Shown here: positions 1 to 21,988 of the stretch, piece after piece
How positions within the stretch are numbered: the stretch's first letter is position 1
Layout: each line of letters begins with the position of its first letter
IMG/VR virus record: IMGVR_UViG_3300025418_001646
Coordinates: 1-21,988 of that record
Length of the DNA: 21,988 bases
Reading direction: 5' to 3' (one strand)
DNA from: a virus
The notes under the pieces: generated by a model
What the model was told of the DNA's origin: nothing
Database searches by the model: none
Seen by the model: the letters and a program-made list of their open reading frames with translations, nothing else
Position numbers and translations under genes: made by a program

Positions 1-1922
1 GTATAATCTCTACCACTTTGTTTAGCTTGTAGTGCTTGTTGTATTTTTGTATCAAAGTGAGCATTAACATTCGGGTCATTAATAACTAAATTACCCACCG
101 AACCTGGAGGAAAAGAAAGACCTGTAAAATTATGGGTAACAGTTAAATTACCTGTAACATTTTGTACAAAATTTCCTACCTTTTCAGATACTTTACTTCC
201 TATGTTCGAGATACCTGTTTCAGCTTTGGATATTATAGGAGATAATATTGATTTTGTTTTATCATATACAGCACCAACACCCTTTTTGAAACTATCCATA
301 GCTTGATTATTAATACCCATTTGTTTACCAACTTCATCTAACATAGCATCGCTAGCTCCCTTAAATGCTTCCATCGATGCATTAATATCTTTTTTGAATG
401 CTTCGCTCTGCATAACTTGACCTAATGATTTACCTTTGTTTTCAGGATTTGTATTAGCATTGTATAATGCAGTAGACAACGCACTCATTGCTTCTTGTAG
501 TTTATTAGAACTTTCACTATTATATGCTCTTGCACCTATCCTTAATGCTATACTATTAACAGTATTCATTATATTTGTTGTGGCAGTATATTGAGATCTG
601 GCTATATCAATCGGATTTTGTGCAGCCATTTTTTCTTGTAGTTTTTGGAATTCACCTATACTACCTCCCATTTCTTCTATTGAATGGAATCCTTCCTCCA
701 TACCCATTTTTTTAGCAATATCCTCAGGTATATCAAAACCAACTTTACCACCTTTTAATGTTGCTAAATTTGCAACAAACTCCTTTTGGTCAGGTTTTAT
801 ACTTGGGAACATATCTATTTTGGACATTATTTCAAATTTGTTTGCTGCCCTAACAGCCATATTTGTCAATTCCCCTGTTGACATACCTAAAGCTTTGGCC
901 ATTTCATTTGCTCTTCTTAAATTAGCACCAGACACTTCAAATCTACCTTGTTCTGTATTAAATGTGGCTAAACTTTTAGCAGCTCCTATTAAACTATCTT
1001 GTAAACCGTCAACATTATTTGTTGCATCATACATTAATTTTATTGGGTCACCAAAATCACCAAATGCACCACCTAAAGCTTGTAAATTAGCAGTCATATC
1101 AATTGCTTTAGCAGGGTCAAATAAATCATTAGCAATATTCAAAGTTTTATCAATAGAAATACCTAATGATTGAGCTTGTTGAACCATTCTGCCTAAACCT
1201 TCAATGCCGTTTTTAAACCCGTATGAATTTAGTTTATCTAAGTTTGTTACTAATGTATCTGTTACCTTTTTGGCATTAAGGCCCATTCCAATAGATGACT
1301 TTCCAATATCATTAACCGATTTGGCTGCATCTGCTAAACCTAAGCCAACACTTCTAAATTTCTCTACATTTTCTAATAGAAATGTGTTTGATTTAGTATA
1401 TGCAGCTGATGCTTCTAATCCTTCAGCTATGGTTTGTTTTCCAACTAAAGCAAGTTTTCCACTTGCTTCTGTAAGACTTCTAACACCATCAATGGTGTTT
1501 TTCATTGTTACTCCGTAATTGGCAACTTCAGAACCGATGAAACCAATTTGTTTTCGCATACCGTCAGCTAACTCTCCATACGCTGAGCCCTGACCTTCTA
1601 AATTAGTACGCATCTCTGCGTCCATTTGTGCAATTGTTTGAATTACCTTTGTAGCTCCACCAGTTAAATCACCAATTAAACCAGGTATGTCGAAACTTGA
1701 CAATCTATCAACAATTTTGTCCACAGTGTTTTCAACATCATTCAAACCAATTCTATATTTTTCGGTATCTAATTGATCTACAAGAGGAGCAGTTACTAAA
1801 CTAACTGTTTTCTCAAGAGCTGAAGAATTGGTATTAAATTTTGTTTGAAGTTCACGAAATTTACCATCGATATAATCTTTCGTACCAGGTGATACATCAT
1901 CGGGTTTATTTTGGAGTAACAT
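1..1922 (-). CDS. Tail tape measure protein, 3' end cut by the window edge
   Basis: An uninterrupted minus-strand reading frame of 640 codons starts at the ATG at 1922 and leaves the window without a stop, so the C-terminus is missing. The start gives MLLQNKPDDVSPG. The protein is long, Ala/Ser/Lys-rich and mostly helical in appearance, with runs such as GGAFGDFGDPIKLMYDA and GANLRRANEMAKALGM. This is the style of phage tail-length tape measure proteins. Its place directly after tube and chaperone genes is the canonical position for one. Tape measure proteins occupy the tube lumen and set tail length; 640 or more residues would be about the size of T4 gp29 (roughly 590 aa), implying a T4-sized tail. 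The last visible residues (VTGNLTVTHNFTGLSFPPGS onward) are less helical and may be near the C-terminus. There is no Shine-Dalgarno sequence; a TATTTAT motif lies 20 nt upstream. Family recognition is from context and composition, not a catalytic motif. Confidence 0.8.
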   Translation of the reverse strand, partial: MLLQNKPDDVSPGTKDYIDGKFRELQTKFNTNSSALEKTVSLVTAPLVDQLDTEKYRIGLNDVENTVDKIVDRLSSFDIPGLIGDLTGGATKVIQTIAQMDAEMRTNLEGQGSAYGELADGMRKQIGFIGSEVANYGVTMKNTIDGVRSLTEASGKLALVGKQTIAEGLEASAAYTKSNTFLLENVEKFRSVGLGLADAAKSVNDIGKSSIGMGLNAKKVTDTLVTNLDKLNSYGFKNGIEGLGRMVQQAQSLGISIDKTLNIANDLFDPAKAIDMTANLQALGGAFGDFGDPIKLMYDATNNVDGLQDSLIGAAKSLATFNTEQGRFEVSGANLRRANEMAKALGMSTGELTNMAVRAANKFEIMSKIDMFPSIKPDQKEFVANLATLKGGKVGFDIPEDIAKKMGMEEGFHSIEEMGGSIGEFQKLQEKMAAQNPIDIARSQYTATTNIMNTVNSIALRIGARAYNSESSNKLQEAMSALSTALYNANTNPENKGKSLGQVMQSEAFKKDINASMEAFKGASDAMLDEVGKQMGINNQAMDSFKKGVGAVYDKTKSILSPIISKAETGISNIGSKVSEKVGNFVQNVTGNLTVTHNFTGLSFPPGSVGNLVINDPNVNAHFDTKIQQALQAKQSGRDY

Positions 1923-1951: not shown

Positions 1952-2119
1952 TTATTCATTATTTTCTAATAAAAGGCCAACAATGTTATTTTTCTCGTGT
2001 ATAGGTAAATTAAGAATTTCATTATATGAAAAACCATTCCTTAATAAAAATAACGTAGTTTGTATTTGATTTTTTTTATATTCCGTAGAAGGGACGAAAA
2101 AAGTCAACCCCAAAATCCA
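1952..2119 (-). CDS. +1-frame extension of the tail assembly chaperone (probable frameshift product)
   Basis: This open frame runs from just after a TAG at 2122-2120 to the TAA at 1954-1952 and overlaps the last 14 codons of the 251-aa gene in the +1 frame. It has no ATG or GTG; only two TTG codons (2113-2111, 2107-2105) could start it independently. Beyond the overlap it encodes a convincing peptide: TTLFLLRNGFSYNEILNLPI followed by HEKNNIVGLL. The overlap contains TTT TTT CGT CCC TTC in the upstream frame. A +1 slip at CCC-T (2093-2090) would give a 292-aa fusion (247 residues plus 45), joining the conserved FFRP end to STEYKKNQ. Tail assembly chaperones between tube and tape measure genes are classically made in short and frameshifted long forms (lambda gpG/gpGT, P2 gpE+E'; Mu by -2; Listeria phage PSA structural proteins by +1 at CCCU). 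A separate TTG-started small protein is the main alternative. Confidence 0.6.
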   Translation of the reverse strand, partial: WILGLTFFVPSTEYKKNQIQTTLFLLRNGFSYNEILNLPIHEKNNIVGLLLENNE

Positions 2120-2831
2120 CTAAAACTGGGATTTTTTCTCCTGATGGGGCTGTTACTTCAACAATTAAATCTAAACCTGGTTTATTTTCATTCACGAATC
2201 TTCGAATGGCTTGTGAATCTTTAATTGGCATATTCTGAATAAAAGTATAAATCGCCATTGGGTCTCTATTTCCTTCAATTGATTTAATTAACATTTCCAA
2301 TCTTTTGGTGTTAATTGGTGGTACAGCCACAGAGGAGTCATTTTTGATTTTATCTAAATCACTCAATTGTTTTTTGTTCAAAAATTTAAAAGTTATATTT
2401 TTTTCACTAACAGGAAGGAAGAATTCATACTCACCATTAGCATCTGCAATTAAATTGAAATCTTTGGTTTTCATTACCGATAAATCTATAGTAGCTAAAA
2501 ATTCTTTGTTTGTTATAGGATCATTTAATTTAATTGTATATTCACTACCAAAAGCAGTATTTCTTAAGAATACTAATATTGCTTGTATGTCTTCATCTAC
2601 TATTTCATCAATTGAAATGTCTTTATCAAGTATTTTTCTTTTCAATAATTCATCAACAATTGAATTATTATCTGATTGAGATAAATTTGGTGATTGTAAA
2701 ATATTTTCATCTGCTGCAGTTAAATAAGCAACTCTTAAACTTTTTTTATTATTTTTATAATAAATTCCTTGTGAGGGTAATGGGACTACGTCATATTGAA
2801 TCGTAGGATCCACTCTAAATGTTTCTTCCAT
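2076..2831 (-). CDS. Tail assembly chaperone / T4 gp26-like baseplate hub protein
   Basis: The 251-aa product starts MEETFRVDPTIQYDVVPLPSQG. Features of the gp26-like family are visible: an N-terminal LPSQGIYY segment (about residues 18-25), an AYLTAADENILQSP segment (about 35-48), an acidic stretch followed by LVFLRNTAFGSEY (about 87-99), a central EYEFFLPVSEKNITFKFL, a late segment with FIQNMPIKDSQAIRRFV, and the C-terminal GVDFFRP that is nearly invariant as GVxFFWP in relatives. These proteins help load or protect the tape measure protein during tail or hub assembly. The gene lies between tube and tape measure, exactly where such chaperones sit. Its 3' end overlaps a +1 reading frame with a possible slippery site. 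There is no Shine-Dalgarno sequence, and no TATTTAT core was seen near this start. A gp26-type hub role and a gpG-type chaperone role are hard to separate by sequence. Confidence 0.72.
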   Translation of the reverse strand: MEETFRVDPTIQYDVVPLPSQGIYYKNNKKSLRVAYLTAADENILQSPNLSQSDNNSIVDELLKRKILDKDISIDEIVDEDIQAILVFLRNTAFGSEYTIKLNDPITNKEFLATIDLSVMKTKDFNLIADANGEYEFFLPVSEKNITFKFLNKKQLSDLDKIKNDSSVAVPPINTKRLEMLIKSIEGNRDPMAIYTFIQNMPIKDSQAIRRFVNENKPGLDLIVEVTAPSGEKIPVLVDFGVDFFRPFYGI

Positions 2832-2934: not shown

Positions 2935-3423
2935 TTAATATACTAAAATACATCTATCAGGACGTAAAGTAACGTCAATATCTGCAATTTCATCTCTAGA
3001 GTAATCTAATTGACCAAAGTTGATGTCTTGCAAAAATGTACCTTGTAATGTCCATTTTTCAATAACAACACCTGTTGGATCAAGCATCTCCAAATCAATA
3101 TCTTTTTTATAACCAGCAGCATAACCCATTCTACCAGTTACTGATTCTGCGTGTAAACGGAACCATTCCATTAATGCTTGAGCAGCTGAAGGTCCAATTG
3201 GATCTCTAAACTTCACTTTCATAGTATCCCAAACGAATCTACCAGCAACATAAGTTGAAGTATTAAGGAATTGTATTTCAGTTGAGTTTATTTTAGCACT
3301 AGGTCTTTGTGAACTAGATACATACCACTCATTTATACCCATTGATGAAGGAAATCTTAGGATAAATCTATTCTGTCTTTTCGGTTCATATGGAACCGGC
3401 ATCTTCATTAGTAAATCTGCCAT
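2935..3423 (-). CDS. Tail tube protein, T4 gp19-like
   Basis: The 162-aa protein matches T4 gp19 (163 aa) closely in length and general sequence style. It opens MADLLMKMPVPYEPKRQNRF, followed by ILRFPSSMGINEWYVSS. It contains the tube-type segments FVWDTMKVKFRDPIGPSAAQ (about residues 63-82) and MEWFRLHAESVTGRMGY (about 84-100), and ends with LQGTFLQDINFGQLDYSRDE then IDVTLRPDRC. In this family hexameric rings stack to make the inner tube inside the contractile sheath. It lies downstream of the sheath gene, the order seen in T4 (18-19), but an HNH gene on the opposite strand separates the two. It has its own strong terminator. A copy of the AAGATATTTATAA motif sits about 43 nt upstream. The start at 3423 is the only sensible ATG. 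Confidence 0.9.
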   Translation of the reverse strand: MADLLMKMPVPYEPKRQNRFILRFPSSMGINEWYVSSSQRPSAKINSTEIQFLNTSTYVAGRFVWDTMKVKFRDPIGPSAAQALMEWFRLHAESVTGRMGYAAGYKKDIDLEMLDPTGVVIEKWTLQGTFLQDINFGQLDYSRDEIADIDVTLRPDRCILVY

Positions 3424-3746: not shown

Positions 3747-4085
3747 ATGAGAATAAGAAACCCTAAAGGCATTTATAAATTAACATGTAGCAAATGTGAT
3801 AAACCAATTGAAAATGAGTTAGTTGGGAGACAAAGATATTGTAGAAAATGTAAAGCAGAGAATACAAAACTACATAGAAAAAATTATAGTGAACTGTCAG
3901 AAGAAGAGAAAATGAAATCGAATGCCAGAGCTTACTTACATGTCTATGTAAAAAGGGGAAAATTAACCAAACTTCCTTGTAGTATTTGTGGTGATGAAAA
4001 AAGTGAAGCCCATCATACCGATTATAATAAACCAATTGATGTTATATGGTATTGTAGAAAATGTCATTTGGAACAACACAAATAA
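3747..4085 (+). CDS. HNH endonuclease-like zinc protein
   Basis: The 112-aa protein has two zinc-binding parts. Residues 14-35 form a ribbon with CxxC (C14, C17) and CxxC (C32, C35). Residues 78-111 form the HNH treble clef: C78-x2-C81, the His pair H89-H90, N94, then C103-x2-C106-H107 and H111. The AHHTDYNKPIDVIW stretch is typical of small phage HNH proteins. Such proteins are free-standing homing nucleases or nicking enzymes. The gene lies on the opposite strand between sheath and tube, which are adjacent in T4, the usual sign of a mobile nuclease gene dropped into a late operon. It has its own promoter-like region and a shared terminator. Its leader (ATATTTATTTAAAAATAG) resembles that of the plus-strand neck gene. 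DNA cleavage is inferred from the motif; a non-catalytic zinc protein is possible. Confidence 0.8.
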   Translation: MRIRNPKGIYKLTCSKCDKPIENELVGRQRYCRKCKAENTKLHRKNYSELSEEEKMKSNARAYLHVYVKRGKLTKLPCSICGDEKSEAHHTDYNKPIDVIWYCRKCHLEQHK

Positions 4086-4137: not shown

Positions 4138-7083
4138 TTACGCATTTTCAAATGATGCACCTGTTGGTGTAATAATGAATTCCAAATCTATGAATTCTAA
4201 AGAACGAGTAGGTTGGATGTATATTTTACCACTTAACAGGTTGTTATCCAAATCAGAAGGATCACTAGATACCGTTACACGGAAGTCTGTTAAACCCCTT
4301 TCTTTTTGTATTTGGGTTAGAATTGGATTTACCAATCTTAAGAATTCTTGTCTAACTGTATCGTCATTTTGTTCAAATAACAATCTTACAGCTACCGCAG
4401 ATATTAATAATCTAGCTTGTAATAACAATCTTCTTACATTTAATCTATCCAAAGCTGATTGTGCAACTTGTAATGTTTTATTACCCCAAATGATAGTACC
4501 AGTGTCTGAGAATGTAGCAATTGGGTTGATATTGTTGTTATATAGATTATCTCTATCGCTTAAAGTTAATTTAGTAACCGCTTTAATTGAATTTACTAAA
4601 CCTCTAGTATAACCTGCTGATGCAAACCAAGGATAAGCAACATTATCAGTTAAGGCAATGTTTCTTACAACCTCACCTGTTGGTGGGATGTATACTTGAG
4701 TTGAATTATAAGGATCAGTTACTTGAATCCAAGGCCAATATGTAGCTGAATAGTTACTATCATAACCTTGATTTTGTATTGCTGAAATTACTTCTGCAGC
4801 TGTACTATAGTTTGGTGAATTTATCACGTATACTGAATCCGCTCTATCGGTTTCGATCATATCAATTGTTAAATTAGTTAACGATGAATGATCGTTAAAA
4901 TTTAAACCTGGTGTTGCAAACACATTGATAGCAACAGCTTCAGGGTTAGCATATGTTTGAATGCCTTGTAAATAAGCATAGTAATCAGAATTTCCAAAAG
5001 ATGAACTAAATACACCTCCGTTATTTGTATTACTTGCATTATACAATGCTTTACCGAAAATATAACCATCGGTATTTGTTCTTGTTTGTCTGTAGATGTC
5101 CCAACCATCAAAACCACCAGCTACAGCAAATGTAAATTTACAAGCATTTTTGTTAGTTAATGGGTTGTTATTACCTGTTTGACCTTCTAAATCGTATTGA
5201 GTTGTTTGATAAACAGTATTACCTGATACATCTGTTATTCCCGCAGCATTTACTGACAAGTGGAAACCGAATGTTGTTTCATTTGCGCTTTTCCCTTTAT
5301 ATTGGAATAAGCTATTATCATAATATGTTTCAAATGAATTAGAAGAAAATAAACCTAAGGTTGTTTTTCTTAATGAATCACCACTTGAGATATGTGGAGT
5401 ACCGTCAGCTTCATAGTACATAACATCACCTGCATTATAATATTGAGTCTTGTAAATTACGCTACCCAAATTACCAGGTGTTGCATTAGAACCATTATTA
5501 AGTTTTCCTGTGTATCCGTTATAACTTGTAAAACCTTTGAAACCTGCAGGGAATGCATCAGAAGGGGCATTATCTGCTAAGTTAATCATAATGTATTTTG
5601 ATTTTAATGGGAAATTACCATCAGATGTACCAATCTTCAATCCAATATAACCTGTTAAAGAAGGGTCCATATTACATCTTGTCCAACTTTCTAATATTAC
5701 TTGATTATCATCTGTATCATTAAAATCACGAACAACTATATCAAAATCACCTGTATTGATATTAATATTTTGAATAGTAATTTTAATTTGATAGTTTGCC
5801 GAATCACCGTCTGCAATTGGTATTACTTGGAATAAATCGTGAACAACACCACCTCTAACTTCAGAAACTACTGTAGGGGACATTGGTGTATCCCATTCAT
5901 TTAAAAAGTCGTGAGTATCCGCGTTATCATCCAAATGTTGATAAATGTTCATATCCAACCCTCTAATCCATCCTTGTTGGAAAGCTACGTTAACTAAATT
6001 ATCATAGATTTCATAAACATATAATGGGAAATTTTGATATGTTTTATCAAATGGTTGGTTACCTAAAACTTTAGGAGCATATTGTGTAATTGAATTATTC
6101 AATGAAATAACGAATGATGTTGCACCGTTAGTTCCACCTGTCACATTCAAAGTGAATTCTGCAAATGGATTAGATTCAATACCGTTACTCGAACTTGCAC
6201 TTACTAATTCGTAAGCTGTAGAGCCAGCAACTTCTAAATCTAATGTATGAGTTGCGTCATAGTGACCTCTCGATCTTAATGCCAAAGCAACTACTCCATC
6301 GTAATTTTTATTAAGAGAAGCCGGATATTTGTATCTAACAACATCAAATGTGTTACCAGTGTGGTTGTAAACAAACAAATATGCATAAACACCATCAATT
6401 GTGCTATCTGTAGCACCTGTTTTATGGTAGAATATGTTATACCACTCTTTATTATTGTTATTATTAGCTGTGTAATTACCTGTTAATGGGCTGACTACTT
6501 CATCACCTGATTGTGAATTTACATCTGCACTTGGTATTAAACCAATTGTAAACCAATTACCATCATCACCTGATGTGTAACCACTAGTTGTGTTTAAAAT
6601 ATAATCGGTAATAGACATACCATTATAAGCTGTTTTACCCGAAAGTTCAACATATATAGCACTTGCTTGCTCGCGTGAAAGGGTTGTTGCTGAAAACGTA
6701 AAGTCTGCTTCACTAGGGGTTGCTTCTTTATTTACGTTTATACCTCCTAATGTTTTTATTGCGAATGTGTTATACGGTTTGTAACCTGTTAAACCTAAAA
6801 CTCTGGTTACAAATAACTGATTTGATTCTTTCAAATATGAATTTGCTACATAAGGTAATTCATATGCAGGATTTCCATTTCCGTCTTTTGCAGGGTTAGT
6901 TGATCCGAATGTTGAGCTGAAACTATCCCAAGATTGTATTAAAATAGGTTCGAAAGCTGGACCCATCATAGTCTCACCCGCTAAACCTAATGTCGTTACT
7001 CCGACACTTTGAGCCACATACGTTAAATCTACCTCGGAAGTGTAAACACCGGGAGATACGAATACTTTTGATGCTGTTGCCAT
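4138..7083 (-). CDS. Contractile tail sheath protein, gp18-like, enlarged
   Basis: The 981-aa protein begins MATASKVFVSPGVYTSEVDL, the standard sheath N-terminus (FxSPGVYxxExD), and goes on with GETMMGPAFEPILIQSWDSF and SYLKESNQLFVTRVLG (about residues 37-95). The C-terminal conserved domain starts near residue 816 (AYPWFASAGYTRGL) and includes NNNINPIATFSDTGTIIWGN, LDRLNVRRLLLQARLLI and KIYIQPTRSLEFIDLEF. Sheath subunits encircle the tube and contract to drive it through the cell envelope. T4 gp18 has 659 residues, so about 320 extra residues lie in the middle, which is Asn/Ser/Thr/Tyr-rich and probably forms outward-facing domains. No Shine-Dalgarno sequence is visible; an AAAGATATTTATGA motif lies 37 nt upstream. 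The gene ends at a bidirectional terminator. Confidence 0.93.
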   Translation of the reverse strand: MATASKVFVSPGVYTSEVDLTYVAQSVGVTTLGLAGETMMGPAFEPILIQSWDSFSSTFGSTNPAKDGNGNPAYELPYVANSYLKESNQLFVTRVLGLTGYKPYNTFAIKTLGGINVNKEATPSEADFTFSATTLSREQASAIYVELSGKTAYNGMSITDYILNTTSGYTSGDDGNWFTIGLIPSADVNSQSGDEVVSPLTGNYTANNNNNKEWYNIFYHKTGATDSTIDGVYAYLFVYNHTGNTFDVVRYKYPASLNKNYDGVVALALRSRGHYDATHTLDLEVAGSTAYELVSASSSNGIESNPFAEFTLNVTGGTNGATSFVISLNNSITQYAPKVLGNQPFDKTYQNFPLYVYEIYDNLVNVAFQQGWIRGLDMNIYQHLDDNADTHDFLNEWDTPMSPTVVSEVRGGVVHDLFQVIPIADGDSANYQIKITIQNININTGDFDIVVRDFNDTDDNQVILESWTRCNMDPSLTGYIGLKIGTSDGNFPLKSKYIMINLADNAPSDAFPAGFKGFTSYNGYTGKLNNGSNATPGNLGSVIYKTQYYNAGDVMYYEADGTPHISSGDSLRKTTLGLFSSNSFETYYDNSLFQYKGKSANETTFGFHLSVNAAGITDVSGNTVYQTTQYDLEGQTGNNNPLTNKNACKFTFAVAGGFDGWDIYRQTRTNTDGYIFGKALYNASNTNNGGVFSSSFGNSDYYAYLQGIQTYANPEAVAINVFATPGLNFNDHSSLTNLTIDMIETDRADSVYVINSPNYSTAAEVISAIQNQGYDSNYSATYWPWIQVTDPYNSTQVYIPPTGEVVRNIALTDNVAYPWFASAGYTRGLVNSIKAVTKLTLSDRDNLYNNNINPIATFSDTGTIIWGNKTLQVAQSALDRLNVRRLLLQARLLISAVAVRLLFEQNDDTVRQEFLRLVNPILTQIQKERGLTDFRVTVSSDPSDLDNNLLSGKIYIQPTRSLEFIDLEFIITPTGASFENA

Positions 7084-11400: not shown

Positions 11401-12519
11401 ATGTCGTCAACAATTATATCACCCGCAGAACGTGACAAACTATATACACAGGTTTTGAATGTATTGGGAGCACCTGTAAGAGGAATCGAATTAGCGGAAG
11501 AACAATTAGATACCTTTTTGGAGTTATCACTTTCAGAATACGAGCAATATGTGGAAGATTGGTTAATTGAATCCCAATGGTCATCATTGAACGGATTAGA
11601 CCTTGATACTCAATCTTTAAGTAGAGCATTTACAACTAAAAGTTTAGATTATGAAACAAGATGGACGTATGCTTACTCTAAAATTGTTGGTTTACAAGCA
11701 GGTGGTGATTGGGTTTTAAAAAAAGATTTTATTACATTAACTGCAAATACTCAAACCTATGTGATACCTGCTGGCCGTGAAATTAATGAAATGATGTGGT
11801 TCGAACGCGCGTCTTTAAGTGATTCAATTGTGGATCCATTTTTAGGGGGTTTTGGTGGTCTTGGTGGGGTTGGTTTCGGTGGAGTTGGTGGATTTGCTCA
11901 AGTGGGAGCTTCAGGTTCTTATTTTATGTTACCTGCTTATGACCTTTTACTTAGAATGGGAGACAGAAATTTGAAAAACAGATTGATTGGTGGTGATATG
12001 ACATATAGAATTACAGCAGGTCCTGAGGGAACTAAAATTGTACATTTATTAAATGTACCAGGTGGTAAATATGATTTTGGTTCAATACAAATGAACAATG
12101 CTCAAGTTTGGTATTGGTACTATGAAACAACTGATAGAGACACTTGTCTTGCTGAAAATAAAGATGTTGTTAAATTACCTTCAGATGTACAAACGGAACA
12201 ATTAATTTGGTCTGATTTGAATAGACCATCTCAAAACTGGGTTAGAAAATATTTGATTGCTTATGCAAAAGAAGGATTAGCGAGAATATGGGGCAAGTTT
12301 TCAGGGGATTTACAAGTTCCTGATAGCTCGGTTAAATTAGATTACAATACCCTACTTACAGAAGCTAAAGATGAGAAACAAAAATTAATTGAAGAATTAA
12401 TGCAAAGACTTGAAAGATTACGCCCTGATAAAATGTTAGAAAGAAAAGCGGGCGAAGCTGAGAATCTTAATAAATCTCTCAAGTTCAGAGCAATGCCCGC
12501 TCCTATACAAGTGGTTTAA
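11401..12519 (+). CDS. Neck protein, gp13-like
   Basis: The 372-aa protein starts MSSTIISPAERDKLYTQVLN and has the opening LGAPVRGIELAEEQLDTFLE (about residues 22-41) seen in gp13-like neck proteins of T4-related phages. Other matching parts are LTANTQTYVIPAGREINEMM (113-132), a QVWYWYYETTD segment, and the late WVRKYLIAYAKEGLARIWGK with a conserved acidic helical tail (LLTEAKDEKQKLIEELMQRL). gp13 and gp14 form the neck collar joining head and tail. Residues 149-165 form a glycine-rich insertion (FGGLGGVGFGGVGG), probably a flexible loop. It is on the plus strand, unlike the rest of the virion genes, and its TAA shares a TTAA with the stop codon of DNA polymerase. A portal-adjacent adaptor role is the alternative. 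Confidence 0.62.
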   Translation: MSSTIISPAERDKLYTQVLNVLGAPVRGIELAEEQLDTFLELSLSEYEQYVEDWLIESQWSSLNGLDLDTQSLSRAFTTKSLDYETRWTYAYSKIVGLQAGGDWVLKKDFITLTANTQTYVIPAGREINEMMWFERASLSDSIVDPFLGGFGGLGGVGFGGVGGFAQVGASGSYFMLPAYDLLLRMGDRNLKNRLIGGDMTYRITAGPEGTKIVHLLNVPGGKYDFGSIQMNNAQVWYWYYETTDRDTCLAENKDVVKLPSDVQTEQLIWSDLNRPSQNWVRKYLIAYAKEGLARIWGKFSGDLQVPDSSVKLDYNTLLTEAKDEKQKLIEELMQRLERLRPDKMLERKAGEAENLNKSLKFRAMPAPIQVV

Positions 12520-15413
12520 CTTTCTATTGCGTGAAAAGCATAATCGTGACCGTTGGTTTCAATTATCTCTTCTTCATTACTTATTGTACTTTTCTCTTGA
12601 AGAGAAACAACTTTTCTATTATGTTCAACCCAATATTGGTCAGCAAGTTCTAAACTGTTTTCAACATACATAAAGAACGGATCACGGCCCACACGATTCC
12701 AAAATAAAACTTCACTATCAGCAAGAGTCATTACTTCGTCAAATTTATCTTGACCACTCTCTTTTAATGGAAAACCATTCACTAATTGACATTGATTTTT
12801 AGTAAAATATTGTCTTTCTTGAGGATTTTCTACTAATATGCCATCTCTTATTTCAGGTTTGAATGCACATAATAAAGGTTCAATACGCTTATTAAAATTA
12901 TTCAAATAACGAGCAACATTGTAATCACCTTTTAAATCAGGATTATCATTTATGTCTTTTTCAGAAATCATATAACAATTCACCTCGATGTAATTCATTG
13001 GCATCGGTTTACCATAAGCTATGTAATAATCTTCTTGTTGTTTTTTAGTCGCTTTGGTAATTTTTTGAACATCCCCTGAAGATTTTTTAACTCCATTATT
13101 AACATAATAGATAGTGTCACCTAAACCTGCAGGATAATCATTTTGAATTATTAGTTCCATATGCGCTTGACGAGACATTAATGAACCTGACTTTGTGGTT
13201 TTTTTTATGTGCTTTTTATAATCTTCAACTGATTGTTTTACACGTGCCTTGTTTGCTATTTTTGCTAATGGAATTTCTTTATTGTAAATTTTTTCTACAT
13301 ATGAATAATAAAGTTCAACAAAAGAATGTCCATCACCATTTAACAAATATTTTAAACCCTCATCCAAAAATTCAACAATGTATGTTTGTAATTTTTTTGA
13401 TTTAATTGTATTACCTGTAAGCTTTATTTTTTCCTTTCCTTTCTTAATCATTTTAATGATGTAATTCTTTCTGGAAACATTTATACAAGCAGGTGCAATA
13501 TAATCGATATCCAAGCCCATCTCATTTCTCATAAAGATATCATTGAACTCAGCTGTATCAGCTTCAATGCCTTTATATTCTTTACCACTTTCTGTTAATT
13601 CATTCGATCCCTTACCAATGTAAATATGAGTATCAATATCTTCGGGAGTTTCAAAATTCACACCATCCGTATCCATAACCAAAGGTTTATAACCTTTCTT
13701 CATAAAAAACATAATCATCATACGGAGACATTGCCTACCCACACAAGTAATAGTTTCACCCATATTCATATCACCCCAAGGAAATACGTGAGGAGCTGAC
13801 AAACTTCCGAAATAAGCGTTGATGAAAATCTTGATTGGTAATTGTTTACGATCATACATTTCAGCCTCCACAGGGTTACTGTTTTTTAGTTCTCCTGCAA
13901 GTCTTTTATATTTAATACGAATATTACGGAAATATTTTAACATTGATTTTTGTACACCCATCACATCACACTCAGGAAATACATCGTAAACTAACTGTAT
14001 AGATGGATAAAGAGACGCATAGTCAAACTTAACAATGTTCTTCGAGTAACCAACGTTTAATAATCTTGATAAACCACCAGTGATTGCACGTTTTTCATCT
14101 TTAGCGGGAATTGCTAAATTATTTTCATAAGACCAAGCTAACATTATAATTTTCCATAATGTAGCCGTACCCATTGTTGCAACTCTTTCGTATGTTGTTG
14201 GTACCAATTTAGAAAGTAAGAAAGTAGATTGCGAGAAACTATCATCAACGACCATAGTTTCTGTTAAGTCATCATCAAGATATTGCTCAACAATTTTTCT
14301 ACCAGGCCATATTTCAAATTTACCAGGAAATTTATCTAAAAGACCTTCTGTTCCCACATCACCTATTTTTTTGTACTTTCCTGTCTTTGGATTGACATAA
14401 TAGCTCTCATTATCGAGATAAATCTTAGATATTTTCCCACCATCGACATAAACACGATTAGGTTTTTCTTTTTCTAAGTACTGTGTTATATACTTTAATC
14501 CCCAAGATTTAATCTCTGAGTTTATTGCTTGAGCTCTTCTAACAGAATGTGCAATATCAATTAAATTAAAACCCCAAATAACGTGTTGTGTGTATGGTTC
14601 AACCTCATTTGCCAATTTCAACATTGCCTCTTTTTCTTTCATACCTTGTAGATTGAATATTTGAGTTAATGCTGTAACATCTACACCTAATATCTTCGCA
14701 CGTTTAAGAATAAATGGCCAGTCAAAAAAGGCCGAGTTATAGCCACCTATAATTGTAGGTTTTAATTCTCTAATATATTTAAAAAACTCTTCAATACATT
14801 TTTTTTCACCATCCTCACCAAATGCAGGAATTGTTTTTTGCAGACCTTTGTTATCCTTAATTCCTATTAAAATTATAGAACAAGTTTCAGGATCCAAACC
14901 TGTCGTTTCAATATCGAATACAAATCTATGAACACCACCATAATCTTCAATACCTTTGAATAATCTTTTCTTTTTTTGAATCAAATATTGTTCAACAGGA
15001 TTCAATACAGTGAAATATTGTTTGAAATTTTCATTCCAAGGGTCTATACCTCCATATCTGAAAAAATTAATTAAATCAGTATATGTTTTAAGACTTCTAA
15101 CCAAGTATTTCATACCTGCTTCTAATCTTTCGTTTCCTTGTGTTTCTAATTTATCAATAATGATTCCGTGCTCTACCATTTTCTTTTTTTGTAGAGACTT
15201 TGATTCTTTATAAAACCCTAAACCTGTTAAATCACCAACCCAAAGAAATGGGGTGAATGTATCTTGTTTAATGATTTTACCCTTATCAGGGTCTTGAATA
15301 ATTTTGGAAATTATATTTGTGGGATAATCGTACTCGACTCCGACGATGTATTTTTCATCGTCTCCACCATTGAGGAATTGTTCAATAACCTCTTGAGAGA
15401 TAACCTCTTGCAT
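12516..15413 (-). CDS. DNA polymerase, family B, with 3'-5' exonuclease (T4 gp43-like)
   Basis: The 965-aa protein has the exonuclease motifs Exo I FDIETTG (D167, E169), Exo II GGYNSAFFDWPF (N226, D231) and a probable Exo III at YLDDD (378-382). Polymerase motif A is FDYASLYPS (D464), motif B is KIFINAYFG (K528, N532, G536), and motif C is VMDTDG (D581, D583). All catalytic acids are present, so it should be a proofreading replicative polymerase. Motif C has Gly where DTDS is usual. It is somewhat longer than T4 gp43 (898 aa). The C-terminal 80 residues follow a YFTKNQCQLVNGFPLKESG segment. It lies after the 128-aa gene on the same strand and ends convergently on the neck gene. The 98-bp leader has no Shine-Dalgarno sequence; AAATAAAATAAAAT precedes the ATG. 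Confidence 0.97.
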   Translation of the reverse strand: MQEVISQEVIEQFLNGGDDEKYIVGVEYDYPTNIISKIIQDPDKGKIIKQDTFTPFLWVGDLTGLGFYKESKSLQKKKMVEHGIIIDKLETQGNERLEAGMKYLVRSLKTYTDLINFFRYGGIDPWNENFKQYFTVLNPVEQYLIQKKKRLFKGIEDYGGVHRFVFDIETTGLDPETCSIILIGIKDNKGLQKTIPAFGEDGEKKCIEEFFKYIRELKPTIIGGYNSAFFDWPFILKRAKILGVDVTALTQIFNLQGMKEKEAMLKLANEVEPYTQHVIWGFNLIDIAHSVRRAQAINSEIKSWGLKYITQYLEKEKPNRVYVDGGKISKIYLDNESYYVNPKTGKYKKIGDVGTEGLLDKFPGKFEIWPGRKIVEQYLDDDLTETMVVDDSFSQSTFLLSKLVPTTYERVATMGTATLWKIIMLAWSYENNLAIPAKDEKRAITGGLSRLLNVGYSKNIVKFDYASLYPSIQLVYDVFPECDVMGVQKSMLKYFRNIRIKYKRLAGELKNSNPVEAEMYDRKQLPIKIFINAYFGSLSAPHVFPWGDMNMGETITCVGRQCLRMMIMFFMKKGYKPLVMDTDGVNFETPEDIDTHIYIGKGSNELTESGKEYKGIEADTAEFNDIFMRNEMGLDIDYIAPACINVSRKNYIIKMIKKGKEKIKLTGNTIKSKKLQTYIVEFLDEGLKYLLNGDGHSFVELYYSYVEKIYNKEIPLAKIANKARVKQSVEDYKKHIKKTTKSGSLMSRQAHMELIIQNDYPAGLGDTIYYVNNGVKKSSGDVQKITKATKKQQEDYYIAYGKPMPMNYIEVNCYMISEKDINDNPDLKGDYNVARYLNNFNKRIEPLLCAFKPEIRDGILVENPQERQYFTKNQCQLVNGFPLKESGQDKFDEVMTLADSEVLFWNRVGRDPFFMYVENSLELADQYWVEHNRKVVSLQEKSTISNEEEIIETNGHDYAFHAIES

Positions 15414-17903: not shown

Positions 17904-20900
17904 TTAACAAGGTGTATTATTAATTGTTATTGTTATTGGTCCGCTACAAGTTCCGTATATATCTATTCTACTTGTTTGACTTCCACCGCCACCTGTGGTA
18001 CAATATGTGTTACCAAGTGAATCCGTAACATGTACATAAACACCTGTATTAAATGGATATGTAAAATAAATGTAGAAAGGTTCTGTCGAATTATTACTAA
18101 AATAATAACTATATCTTCCCGAACCTCCATTTACAATACCTGAATATGTATTTCCACTCACATGTGTTGTGATATTTTGTCCAAGATAACTCATTCCTTG
18201 TATAACTTGTGAAGTGTTATTTATTATATCAAAATTAATTGTATAACAAACGAATGTAGGAGTTGGTGTTGGTGTCGGCATTGTTTGTGTTGGCGTTGGT
18301 GTCACACTATGTGTTGGTGTGTTTGTCACACTTACAGTTGGTGTAGCAGTCATTGTTGAGCTAGGTGTATGTGTTGGTGTATTTGATAATGTAATACTTG
18401 GTGTTGGTGTATTAGTATGAGTAGGTGTAACAGTTACTGTAGGTGTTGTAGTTGGTGTAATAACTACCGCACTTGAACTTGGCGTTGGAGTACTTGTAAC
18501 ACTTACTGTAGGTGTAAAACTATGAGTAGGGGTTATGCTTATAGTTGGTGTAGGAGTTGATGTCACCGCTATAGTTGTTGGGGTCGGAGTTGGTTCACCA
18601 CCCTTATCATATACGGAAATAACAATAACATCATTTGCATTAAGAGATAAACCAGTTAGAGATAATGTATCTTGATTCAAAGATATTTCAGAAATTGTTA
18701 CGATATTATTTTTTGTTACAATAACGTCAAATAAATTACCGCTACTATTATCGAATAAAATATTTATCACATCACTACCAGTACCTGTTACGGAAGGGTG
18801 TGAATATAAACCACCATAGTTATTAGCATTAAGAGGGAATGCATTGAAATCTAATACTTGAGTAGCGCCACTAATCGTTAATCCGGTTACTACTATACCA
18901 CTTGCATTTGTATCATTATGAATAAGTATTGTAGGATTTGGTGGATAAACAAAATATCCATTATATGTTAAAGTATTAAATTCAAATTTACCCATTTCTT
19001 GGAATGGAACACAATTTTGAGTAAATAAATTCATTGTAGTTCCTGTTGATTCCACAAAAAATGTGTCTGTGGCACTTGTATTAATAAAAGTATAACCATC
19101 AGCTTCAGGTGTACCTCCTTTCCACAACGTTGCCTTCAAAAAAACAGGATTAACACCTACTTGACTATAAAAAGTTGAAGTAAAAGTTATTTCTATATTA
19201 TGAGAACTAGGATTTTGAATTTTGAACTGATTCAAATCAAATAAAACCGCTTCTGCGCCTGTACCGTGATTATCACCACCATAAATCAAATAAGGCGTTC
19301 CTGTATATGGGTAAGTATCCATACTTGGACCTGCGCAAGTACCCACGTAATCATAATAATTACCGCCTGTTACTTGAACAGCATTGGAGTCCCCACTATT
19401 ACTTAACATTATAGATGGGTTGGAAATATATGTTATTGTATCAGTGTCTAAACCGTCAGTAAAAAAATATTCAACGACCATATAATCAAAATCGAACGTA
19501 AAACCTGACGAAGGAATTGAACCAAAACCTGTTGGTGTTGGTGTAGTTGTAGGTGTTGGTGTCATCCCTAAAGTTGCAGTTGGCGTTGGTGTCGCTGATA
19601 CACCTAATGTTGAAGTAGGTGTAGGTGTATGACTAATTGTTGGGGTTGGAGTATTTGTGTGTGTTGACGTAACTGTTATAGTAGGCGTCGGTGTAACGGT
19701 ACTTGAAACACTTACTGTAGGTGTTATAGTGTTTGTAGGCGTTGCAGTCGGCGTTAAACCTTGAGTTACCGACGGCGTAGGTGTAATTGTAGATGTAGGT
19801 GTATTAGTAGGTGTACTCGTTGGAGTCGCTGTTGGTGTTTCAGTTGGTAAAGGAGTATAAGTAAAACTTACAAAAACAGGTAATCCTGTTCTGAAATTAC
19901 TTACACTACCACTTGTTAAATTTAAATCAGGAGCATAAAATGTAACATAGGTAACTCCCGATTCAGAAACTATGTCTACTCCTGATGGATCACCACTATA
20001 TGTAACACTTATACTATCTTGACAAAATGTAACAAAATATATAGTATTTTCTAAGTTATTGAAATATGTTTCTTGATTAGTTCCATAAGCATCAATCATT
20101 CCAAATAAACAAGTATCAAATGAATTTGGATCATAAGTGACATCACCTGAAATATCAAGAAAAACTATTGAATTATTTGTATCTGATGGTTGAGTAATAG
20201 GTGTTGATAATAAATTATATCTTATTCCTGTACAAGAACCAACTACATTTGTTGTAGTAGGTGTTGGAGTTGCTGTAGGCGTTAAACCTGGTGTAACCGT
20301 ATGAGTAGGAGTTATACTTGGAGTAATCGTCACAGTTGGTGTTGGAGTTGGAGTTAATGTCGATGTTGCCGTAGGTGTTAATCCCGGAGTTACTGTCACA
20401 GTTGGTGTAACAGTAGGTGTAGGTGTATTAGTCGGAGTTGCTGATATGTCGATAGAACGTAAAAGATTAAAATCCTCAACGCAAGGTCCACCACATCCAT
20501 ATATATTAAAATTTGGCATTATCTCTGTAATATATTTATGATAAATATGAACATAATCTAAAGGTTGTTCATAATATTGTATTTGTTTTATGTTGAAACA
20601 ACAAGTTCCTTCGTGAACTCCTCCCATTAAACTTGGACCACCTCCCCAAGATTGAACAAATGGTTGATATCCTCTTGTAGAAGGCACAATTTCAATCCAA
20701 TTTTGTTTTTTGTAGATTGGGTTTCCATTTAAATAAATTTTTAATTCACCCATTCTATCTTGTAAACCATTCCACCACTTTAAATCTAAATTTTCTATTA
20801 ATTCATATTTTTCAGTTTGTCCTGAAATAATTGCGTTAGGATCGTTGATTAAAGTTTTACCTGAAATCATATCGTTCCAACCCCCTCTGTTATTTACATC

Positions 20901-21988
20901 ACAATAATCATAATGATTATATCTATTGAAAACAATCGAAATGTTGAAATCAGTAGTTAAACCTGAAGAACAAATTGTTGGTGTTTCATCTGTATCCACA
21001 TAATAATCATAAGAATAACCATTTGTTGTATCACAATCACCAGAATATCTTACTGATACCCATCTTATTTTTCCTTCGGGTGTAAATTGAAATGAAAGAT
21101 TATTGTCTGCATATTTTGATATGTCATCTTCACCTCTTACACCAAAATAATAAAATGTTCGTCCTTGAGACCAATCTAAACCCATTCTATTAAAAACAAA
21201 ATCTAATGTCCACCCACTTTGTGTTCTTCTTTCTAAAATAGGGTCACAAAAATCATCACCTGAACCTGTATTAAACTCATAAGCCCAAGGTTTAACATTT
21301 AAAGCGTCAGGTTGAGGACAACAAGCTCCTGAATAATATGTGGTCGCTGTGAATGGTTCGATTGGGAAATCGGGAGTAGAACCTGTTAATGTCCATCCAG
21401 ATACAACAGCAAATGAACTTTCACCATAAAACCATTTAGACTGAGGATAATTAACATTACCTGTGAAATATTGTGAATCTGTCCAAGGAGTTTTATTTGA
21501 TTCCGCAAAAAATGGTGGGTTAATAAATTGACTTATCCCTAAAGGACAAGCAAATATCGAAGGAGTAAAACCTGAAATAATTTCAGATTCAGTAAAACCT
21601 GATAACAATGGATCAATAAAAAGGGAATCATTGTAATTTGAAATAATAAAATAATGAACTTCTCCTGTTATACCTATAAAAGTAAAAGTATCATTATTTA
21701 AAATAGTGTTTTCATATGATAAACCCCCAAAAGTATCGAAATAATTAATCCAATTAGCATAGTCAATTGTAAAAGATAAACCCGAATAGATATAACCTGA
21801 ATCGTACGTGCGGTAATCAAATTCATTTATTGAAATAGTATTTATATTACAACTATATCCTGACATACTTTCATTAATTTTTAATGATGAATATGTAATA
21901 GGAGTATTAAAATTGATAACCTCAGTATCATAATCACCTTGAACTGGTGATAATTGATAATCGAATAATTCTGAATAATCTACCCTAA
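17904..21988 (-). CDS. Giant Pro/Thr-linker tail fibre or adhesin, 5' end outside the window
   Basis: An ATG at 21866 would give 1320 aa, but the same frame stays open to the window edge with protein-like sequence (VDYSELFDYQLSPVQGDYDT, then EVINFNTPITYSSLKINES), so this ATG is probably internal and at least 1361 codons are present. Numbered from 21866: residues 1-472 form a Trp/Tyr-rich domain with a LamG/concanavalin-like look (WTLDFVFNRMGLDWSQGRTF, MGELKIYLNGNPIY, FVQSWGGGPSLMGGVHEGTC); 473-539, 670-779 and 1090-1205 are Thr-Pro linkers; 540-669, 780-1089 and 1206-1320 are separate beta-rich domains, the last with a Cys-containing tip ending PITITINNTPC. The layout is that of a virion adhesin with sugar-binding-type modules on flexible stalks. 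It leads the fibre group. No signal peptide is visible in this part. A fibre role is inferred from context and architecture. Confidence 0.75.
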   Translation of the reverse strand, partial: RVDYSELFDYQLSPVQGDYDTEVINFNTPITYSSLKINESMSGYSCNINTISINEFDYRTYDSGYIYSGLSFTIDYANWINYFDTFGGLSYENTILNNDTFTFIGITGEVHYFIISNYNDSLFIDPLLSGFTESEIISGFTPSIFACPLGISQFINPPFFAESNKTPWTDSQYFTGNVNYPQSKWFYGESSFAVVSGWTLTGSTPDFPIEPFTATTYYSGACCPQPDALNVKPWAYEFNTGSGDDFCDPILERRTQSGWTLDFVFNRMGLDWSQGRTFYYFGVRGEDDISKYADNNLSFQFTPEGKIRWVSVRYSGDCDTTNGYSYDYYVDTDETPTICSSGLTTDFNISIVFNRYNHYDYCDVNNRGGWNDMISGKTLINDPNAIISGQTEKYELIENLDLKWWNGLQDRMGELKIYLNGNPIYKKQNWIEIVPSTRGYQPFVQSWGGGPSLMGGVHEGTCCFNIKQIQYYEQPLDYVHIYHKYITEIMPNFNIYGCGGPCVEDFNLLRSIDISATPTNTPTPTVTPTVTVTPGLTPTATSTLTPTPTPTVTITPSITPTHTVTPGLTPTATPTPTTTNVVGSCTGIRYNLLSTPITQPSDTNNSIVFLDISGDVTYDPNSFDTCLFGMIDAYGTNQETYFNNLENTIYFVTFCQDSISVTYSGDPSGVDIVSESGVTYVTFYAPDLNLTSGSVSNFRTGLPVFVSFTYTPLPTETPTATPTSTPTNTPTSTITPTPSVTQGLTPTATPTNTITPTVSVSSTVTPTPTITVTSTHTNTPTPTISHTPTPTSTLGVSATPTPTATLGMTPTPTTTPTPTGFGSIPSSGFTFDFDYMVVEYFFTDGLDTDTITYISNPSIMLSNSGDSNAVQVTGGNYYDYVGTCAGPSMDTYPYTGTPYLIYGGDNHGTGAEAVLFDLNQFKIQNPSSHNIEITFTSTFYSQVGVNPVFLKATLWKGGTPEADGYTFINTSATDTFFVESTGTTMNLFTQNCVPFQEMGKFEFNTLTYNGYFVYPPNPTILIHNDTNASGIVVTGLTISGATQVLDFNAFPLNANNYGGLYSHPSVTGTGSDVINILFDNSSGNLFDVIVTKNNIVTISEISLNQDTLSLTGLSLNANDVIVISVYDKGGEPTPTPTTIAVTSTPTPTISITPTHSFTPTVSVTSTPTPSSSAVVITPTTTPTVTVTPTHTNTPTPSITLSNTPTHTPSSTMTATPTVSVTNTPTHSVTPTPTQTMPTPTPTPTFVCYTINFDIINNTSQVIQGMSYLGQNITTHVSGNTYSGIVNGGSGRYSYYFSNNSTEPFYIYFTYPFNTGVYVHVTDSLGNTYCTTGGGGSQTSRIDIYGTCSGPITITINNTPC
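18252..18597 (-). repeat. Thr-Pro linker repeat 3 (C-terminal)
   Basis: Degenerate units of T-P with V/I/S/N/H spacers (for example TPTVSVTSTPTPSSS) are encoded by GGTGTNGGNGT-like DNA on the plus strand. About 115 residues with hardly any other residue type. Confidence 0.9.
19529..19857 (-). repeat. Thr-Pro linker repeat 2 (central)
   Basis: About 110 residues of TPT(A/N/S)TPT-type repeat, including PGLTPTATPT-like and SVTQGLTPTATPT units that recur in linker 1. Codons for Thr and Pro vary between units, so the repeat is kept at protein level rather than by very recent DNA duplication. Confidence 0.9.
20248..20447 (-). repeat. Thr-Pro linker repeat 1
   Basis: About 66 residues, containing the unit VTPGLTPTAT twice, separated by TP-TV-TI runs. 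It joins the LamG-like first domain to the second domain. Confidence 0.9.

Follow-up and report, generated by a model that had tools for sequence, protein, structure and literature searches.

The tail assembly chaperone gene of the viral DNA analysed here (the window, positions 1-21,988 of IMG/VR record IMGVR_UViG_3300025418_001646) very probably directs the synthesis of two proteins, a short form of 251 aa and a long form of 292 aa, the latter produced by a +1 ribosomal frameshift at UUU-C near the end of the gene. By every comparative test available, this is a real, conserved and programmed +1 frameshift site in a known class of proteins. A first-pass annotation of the window had described a +1 frame at 1952-2119 that overlaps the end of a 251-aa chaperone gene, and two potential slip sites, CCC-T at 2093-2090 and TTTTTT-C at 2102-2096; all of these positions were reproduced. 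The 251-aa reading frame lies at 2831-2076 on the minus strand, and the +1 frame is open from the codon at 2119-2117 to a stop at 1954-1952 (Table 1).

Table 1. Position of the features discussed in the text (window coordinates)
Feature	Coordinates	Strand	Remarks
Short form, 251-aa gp26-type tail assembly chaperone (TAC-N)	2076..2831	-	PF12322, phrog_150 and fold matches; stop TAA 2078-2076
Predicted slip site TTT TTT C	2096..2102	-	TTT-C in 30/30 relatives; next zero-frame codon CGT
+1 reading frame	1952..2119	-	Overlaps the chaperone end; 41 codons beyond the chaperone stop; stop TAA 1954-1952
Predicted long-form tail domain, 47 aa after the junction (VPSTEYKK...LLENNE)	1955..2095	-	Three predicted helices; homologous to T4 gp51 C-terminus
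Candidate upstream stem, 5′ arm GCCCCA	2145..2150	-	RNAalifold and shuffle test
Candidate upstream stem, 3′ arm TGGGGT	2107..2112	-	Ends 4 bases before the first TTT; includes the rare GGG (Gly) codon, which is invariant; co-variation with the 5′ arm
CCC of CCC-T, alternative slip site, judged not used	2091..2093	-	Zero-frame CCC only in the window clade
Tape-measure-like gene, 640 aa, downstream of the chaperone	3..1922	-	Position after tube and chaperone; runs off the window
Tail tube gene, upstream of the chaperone	2935..3423	-	phrog_4542, E 2.4e-29

The genes of the window are arranged in the order sheath, tube, chaperone and tape-measure-like gene, and the chaperone thus occupies the place characteristic of tail assembly chaperones (TACs), between the tube and tape measure genes. 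The 640-aa tape-measure-like product had no family match in Pfam and PHROG profile scans; a tape measure is annotated at the equivalent position in phages immuto, SP-15 and LIS04. The end of the chaperone gene reads GTT GAC TTT TTT CGT CCC TTC TAC GGA ATA TAA and, if CGTC is taken as a single step, conceptual translation yields the fused protein of 292 aa. As first noted, the overlapping +1 frame lacks ATG and GTG, though two TTG codons are present upstream of the slip site. Several other genes of the window deserve mention in their own right. The 981-aa tail sheath protein (4138-7083, minus strand) is covered over its entire length by a phrog_23 match of only ~450 profile positions and must therefore carry large insertions. 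The opposite (plus) strand carries, between the tube and sheath genes, a 112-aa ORF (3747-4085) with CxxC pairs and an HNH-endonuclease-like HHTDYNKP stretch. A 1320-aa protein (17904-21866, minus), possibly a tail fibre, has several long Thr-Pro repeat stretches (TPTPT) separating its domains, and the closest phage relatives of a Family B DNA polymerase (12516-15413, minus), from Salinibacter and Nostoc/Anabaena phages, are ~24% identical.

The 251-aa gene is a gp26-type tail assembly chaperone. Proteins of this class are needed for tail assembly, are absent from virions and bind the tape measure and the tube. The short form matches PF12322 just above the cut-off (25.5 bits against 24.5, E 1.3e-5) and phrog_150 with an E-value of 1.3e-8. 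Its AlphaFold model, calculated separately from that of the tail, has a pLDDT of 87.9 and retrieves gp26/gp51-type hub proteins from the viral Foldseek database (BFVD) with E-values down to 6.7e-28. Among solved structures, the best folds for residues 131-219 are 3klu (YqbN, Z 5.5) and 2ob9 (the HK97 tail assembly chaperone, Z 5.1), followed by a third match at Z 4.1; these Z-scores are middling and the Foldseek E-values not significant. As modelled, the short form has the TAC fold.

T4 gp26 and gp51 both fall into PF12322 and phrog_150, gp51 being longer at its C-terminus, and on this sequence evidence the two are paralogues, gp51 corresponding to a gp26-like protein plus a tail. In T4 they are divergently transcribed (L035:6803-8229). 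The fused 292-aa protein of the window aligns with phrog_150 from position 19 to 270 of 282 (E 1e-9), continuously through the junction and into the gp51 C-terminal part, while the short form alone reaches position 233. The suggestion that the gene would link gp26-like and gp51-like functions in a short/long pair is supported. A P-SSM2-type gp26 and gp51 joined in the same way match the profile over positions 5-278 with 321 bits. Profile-profile comparison of the tails, for which all E-values are single-pair values, provides a chain of homology from the window tail to Mel-JY01-type tails (E 1.3e-14), from these to cyanophage gp51 (E 1.2e-5), and from the cyanophage gp51 tail to T4 gp51 C-termini (E 3.4e-12). 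The direct comparison of the window tail with T4 gp51 C-termini, which had been proposed as a check of the fusion, gave a modest result in the same direction (single-pair E 6.6e-5, probability 64%). No significant match was obtained when the profile of the fused window family was compared pairwise with full-length T4 gp51, although phrog_150 covers both, and neither Pfam and PHROG scans with the tails alone nor a PDB sequence search returned anything convincing. The tail is modelled as three helices (pLDDT 90.5); ranked by TM-score, the viral models closest to it belong to gp51-type proteins (0.87 and 0.79; E-values not significant), and it had no match in the PDB.

Scanning IMG/VR with the 251-aa protein yielded 30 relatives (58-100% identical), representing 24 distinct genes. 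The +1 overlap is present in all 30, with the +1 frame open for 41-44 codons beyond the stop, and in the zero frame all of them end in FGVEFFRPFYG[IL], apart from minor differences. Over the first 36 codons after the stop in the 24 distinct genes, pN/pS is 0.46 in the +1 frame, while the two remaining frames give 0.98 and 1.23. The third codon position of the +1 tail is the most variable (0.53 versus 0.35 and 0.29). The tail is thus protein-coding sequence under purifying selection, and it is so in the +1 frame only. Synonymous variation in the chaperone gene amounts to 0.80 of expectation gene-wide and falls to its minimum, 0.29-0.39, in nine-codon windows immediately 5′ of the site and where the gene ends. 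An overlap of this kind is far beyond chance; the initial observation is confirmed, and the complete conservation of the overlap together with the pN/pS of the +1 frame lends support to the 292-aa fusion. A sequencing error restoring a single frame, or a decayed gene, might have been suspected from a frame break in a metagenome contig, but this is refuted by the same break under purifying selection in 24 distinct genes from many metagenomic samples and in several isolate genomes.

How the tail is reached is a separate question. One could imagine that it is made as a separate small protein by re-initiation within or after the chaperone gene, which is how cyanophage gp51 is annotated. The two TTG codons in the +1 frame of the window could serve such a purpose, and the gp51 genes of cyanophages and KVP40 have an ATG just past the chaperone stop. 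However, ATG, GTG and TTG are all missing from the +1 frame in 8 of the 24 distinct window-family genes and from the relevant stretch in 23 of 72 sister genes, and the commonest +1-frame TTG is converted to TAG by a synonymous GTT/GTA change in a Val codon. These losses make conventional initiation of the tail unlikely, and conservation of the open +1 frame, moreover, reaches back through TTT TTT Y. We therefore consider re-initiation very improbable.

The frameshift could also take place at one of several positions or by another step, with distinct consequences for the fused protein. Both slip sites put forward in the first-pass annotation permit +1 re-pairing in the window, and that annotation had named RP-STEYK, the junction for CCC-T, as the one to look for in a peptide. 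Only one of the two stands up to comparison. TTT-C is found in 30 of the 30 window-family relatives, but a zero-frame CCC exists only in the window clade; the other members have CCT-T, TAT-T or an altered codon, and neither CCT-T nor TAT-T can re-pair in +1. CCC-T at the gene end is not conserved in the relatives, and we give a shift at this site the same slight likelihood as re-initiation; the predicted junction becomes DFF-VPSTEYK. The second TTT is kept in all 18 non-redundant genes, even though 66 of the 251 Phe codons elsewhere in these genes are TTC, and the ratio of observed to expected synonymous variation at this codon is 0. The predicted slip site is TTT-C, re-pairable one base 3′ and conserved at the nucleotide level; it takes the form TTT TTT CGN in the window family and TTT TTT TGG in the sister group. 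A slow codon in the A site is a weak explanation for its action since CGT, at 4.9 per 1000, is used no less often than GTC, the codon read in +1 (2.2 per 1000).

The same fusion could be obtained by a −2 shift on TTTTTT, giving the junction DFFF-VPSTEYK. Phage Mu makes use of a −2 shift, and the six Ts would permit the corresponding re-pairing in most members. It is impossible, however, in four relatives with an interrupted T run, namely L021 and GXN1 (TTC TTT CG), LR756508 (TTT CTA TTC) and immuto (TTT CTT TGG), all of which still allow re-pairing in +1, which leaves the −2 shift with an even smaller likelihood. These four are equally informative with respect to RNA polymerase slippage, which would generate edited mRNAs on the T runs of 6-7 residues found in most members: they keep TTT-C or CTT-T in spite of the interruption, and the overlap is maintained in members whose T run does not exceed three residues (L021, L033, L034 and L036). 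Such short runs seldom cause polymerase slippage, and we regard this explanation as scarcely credible. A lambda-type −1 shift, already thought unlikely in the first-pass annotation, fails in the window because the −1 frame closes 11 codons beyond the zero-frame stop and is not conserved in the family. The computed tryptic peptide spanning the TTT-C junction is IPVLVDFGVDFFVPSTEYK, with an [M+2H]2+ of 1086.567; the corresponding values are 1115.083 for CCC-T and 1160.101 for the −2 shift.

A second conserved element lies upstream of the slip site. The fourth codon 5′ of the slip codon is the Gly codon GGG in 18 of 18 genes, despite a usage in the window of 4.0 per 1000 for GGG as compared to 45.8 for GGT. 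Dual coding does not explain this invariance because the +1 frame is closed at this position in many relatives. Unprompted, RNAalifold pairs the sequence [A/G]CCCCR with YGGGGT in the window family. Pairing holds in 99.1% of the cells, a score attained by none of 500 shuffles and abolished by shifting the partner. Both ends of the R-Y pair are synonymous third codon positions; the gene tree implies about four changes of this pair between A-U and G-C, and a single member (L030) has a mismatch. On the other hand, the thermodynamic z-score of the stem in the window sequence is only −1.1, little better than shuffles, and RNAalifold found no conserved RNA structure in the sister group; for these reasons a role of the stem in shifting is kept as a proposal. 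The GGGG might conceivably act as a Shine–Dalgarno-like element of the kind used at the +1 site of E. coli RF2 (prfB), CUU UGA, but it is located 8 nt from the P-site TTT compared to a spacing of 3 nt in RF2, so we mention this as a possibility only. The immuto site, CTT TGG, would be the same kind of P-site slip as CUU U in RF2, with the difference that here the A site holds a sense codon instead of a stop and the GGGG is farther upstream than the RF2 element.

The same +1 arrangement extends to sequenced isolates infecting different hosts, immuto (Flavobacterium), Mel-JY01 (Microcystis), GXN1 (Streptococcus), SP-15 (Bacillus) and LIS04 (Listeria), and to the 484-kb LR756508. In Rhodothermus phage RM378 a +1 frame of matching length is present, but it lacks a clear tail motif. 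The tail is largely unannotated in these genomes; in Mel-JY01 it appears as a separate overlapping CDS. Among Mel-JY01-type loci in IMG/VR, 78 of 80 have the +1 tail and the remaining two reach a contig edge, which, together with the 30 close relatives, answers the call for the same overlap in related genomes. Their site, in 63 non-redundant sequences, is TTT TTT TGG CCT (58), CTT TTT TGG CCT (3) or TTT TTT TAC CCT (2). Two distant Bacteroidales contigs with a chaperone relative, L211 and L215, have no shifted tail, and the chaperone stop of L215 is directly followed by the start of a long tape-measure-like ORF.

Another set of phages, comprising cyanophages P-SSM2 and S-SM2, Agrobacterium phage Atu_ph07 and Vibrio phage KVP40, carries the tail downstream of T_TTT_TTC in the −1 frame, and the chaperone gene ends in TTT TTC G(T/C)A stop. 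This −1 arrangement is seen in 78 of 80 P-SSM2-type loci; the other two are truncated at the edge of their contigs. TTT TTC is present without exception in the 43 non-redundant members. A separate ATG-started gene in place of the tail had been named at the outset as an argument against a fusion. Such genes are indeed annotated as gp51 in cyanophages and KVP40, with an ATG of their own just past the chaperone stop, but there a −1 slippery heptamer precedes the tail, which is in the −1 frame. The annotated gp51 of this group (L041-L044 and L045-L124; cyanophage, KVP40 and Atu_ph07) is probably the tail of a −1 fusion; the ATG could also serve, and with it re-initiation may also occur in the cyanophage/KVP40 group. 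Cyanophage and vibriophage gp51 have been described as lacking the first ~200 aa (Sullivan et al. 2010, PMC3037559). Cyanophage gp51 seems too short by this length because the residues concerned are the gp26 part. These phages thus resemble the window in having the tail directly behind a gp26-type gene at TTTTTTC and differ from it in the frame of the tail and the presence of the ATG.

The best known precedent is the lambda gpG/gpGT chaperone, which is made by a −1 shift (Atkins et al. 2016, PMC5009743). By description, the window gene is alike in its location between tube and tape measure, in the predicted production of a short and a rarer long form by a shift near the end, and in the tail being encoded in another frame, but it would shift +1 at UUU-C. 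The G-T frameshift is widely conserved in long-tailed phages with the exception of T4, and the archaeal virus HSTV-2 likely employs a +1 shift in its chaperone gene (Atkins et al. 2016, PMC5009743); HSTV-2 and the window gene are again likened by description. The T4 chaperones were identified as gp26/gp51 by Vladimirov, Gautam and Davidson (2022), who, as cited in PMC10885494 and PMC12846349, described T4-like phages in which a short gene is accompanied by a longer fusion gene, and others with poly-T −1 signals; the title of their work proposes a different mechanism for T4-like phages. In T4 there are two genes and no shift, in the window one gene with a predicted shift, yet both belong to the PF12322/phrog_150 family and the C-terminal tail of T4 gp51 corresponds to the +1 tail of the window gene. 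Vandenendeviridae chaperones, from other phage families, have a −1 GTTTTT site (PMC12846349) and resemble the window in that a poly-T slip site is situated where TAC-N ends. By the account of the papers citing Vladimirov et al., the gp26/gp51 chaperone identity and the −1 sites are thus prior art. Within a partial literature search we found no account of a +1 version or of a change in shift direction, and within that search the widespread +1 version and the change in direction are new.

We have combined these data in a model for the expression of the chaperone gene. Most ribosomes would terminate at 2078-2076, the product being the 251-aa short form (TAC-N). In a fraction of them, the P-site tRNA-Phe paired with the second UUU of UUU UUU CGU would move one base forward, re-pairing with UUC during the wait for the next codon. 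Reading in the +1 frame for 47 codons would then give the 292-aa long form (TAC-NC), whose helical tail is a homologue of the T4 gp51 C-terminus. By analogy with lambda gpG/gpGT, the two forms, made in a set ratio, may coat the tape measure and recruit tube subunits. While the dual coding and the slip site are conserved and the homology and fold are established by the comparisons above, we infer the occurrence and rate of slippage, a contribution of the stem and the function in assembly. A broader scheme, which we hold tentatively and just short of calling it probable, is that the homologous U run is used for +1 shifting by one half of the T4-like phages and for −1 shifting by the other, the direction having been reversed in evolution with both products kept, and that in the window family the stem re-forming behind the ribosome pushes it forward.

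Many T4-like phages possess a conserved frameshift arrangement that is mostly unannotated and can be +1, and a predicted long-form protein, missing so far, can be added to many genomes. These phages also provide a natural set for studying how +1 and −1 sites are interconverted.
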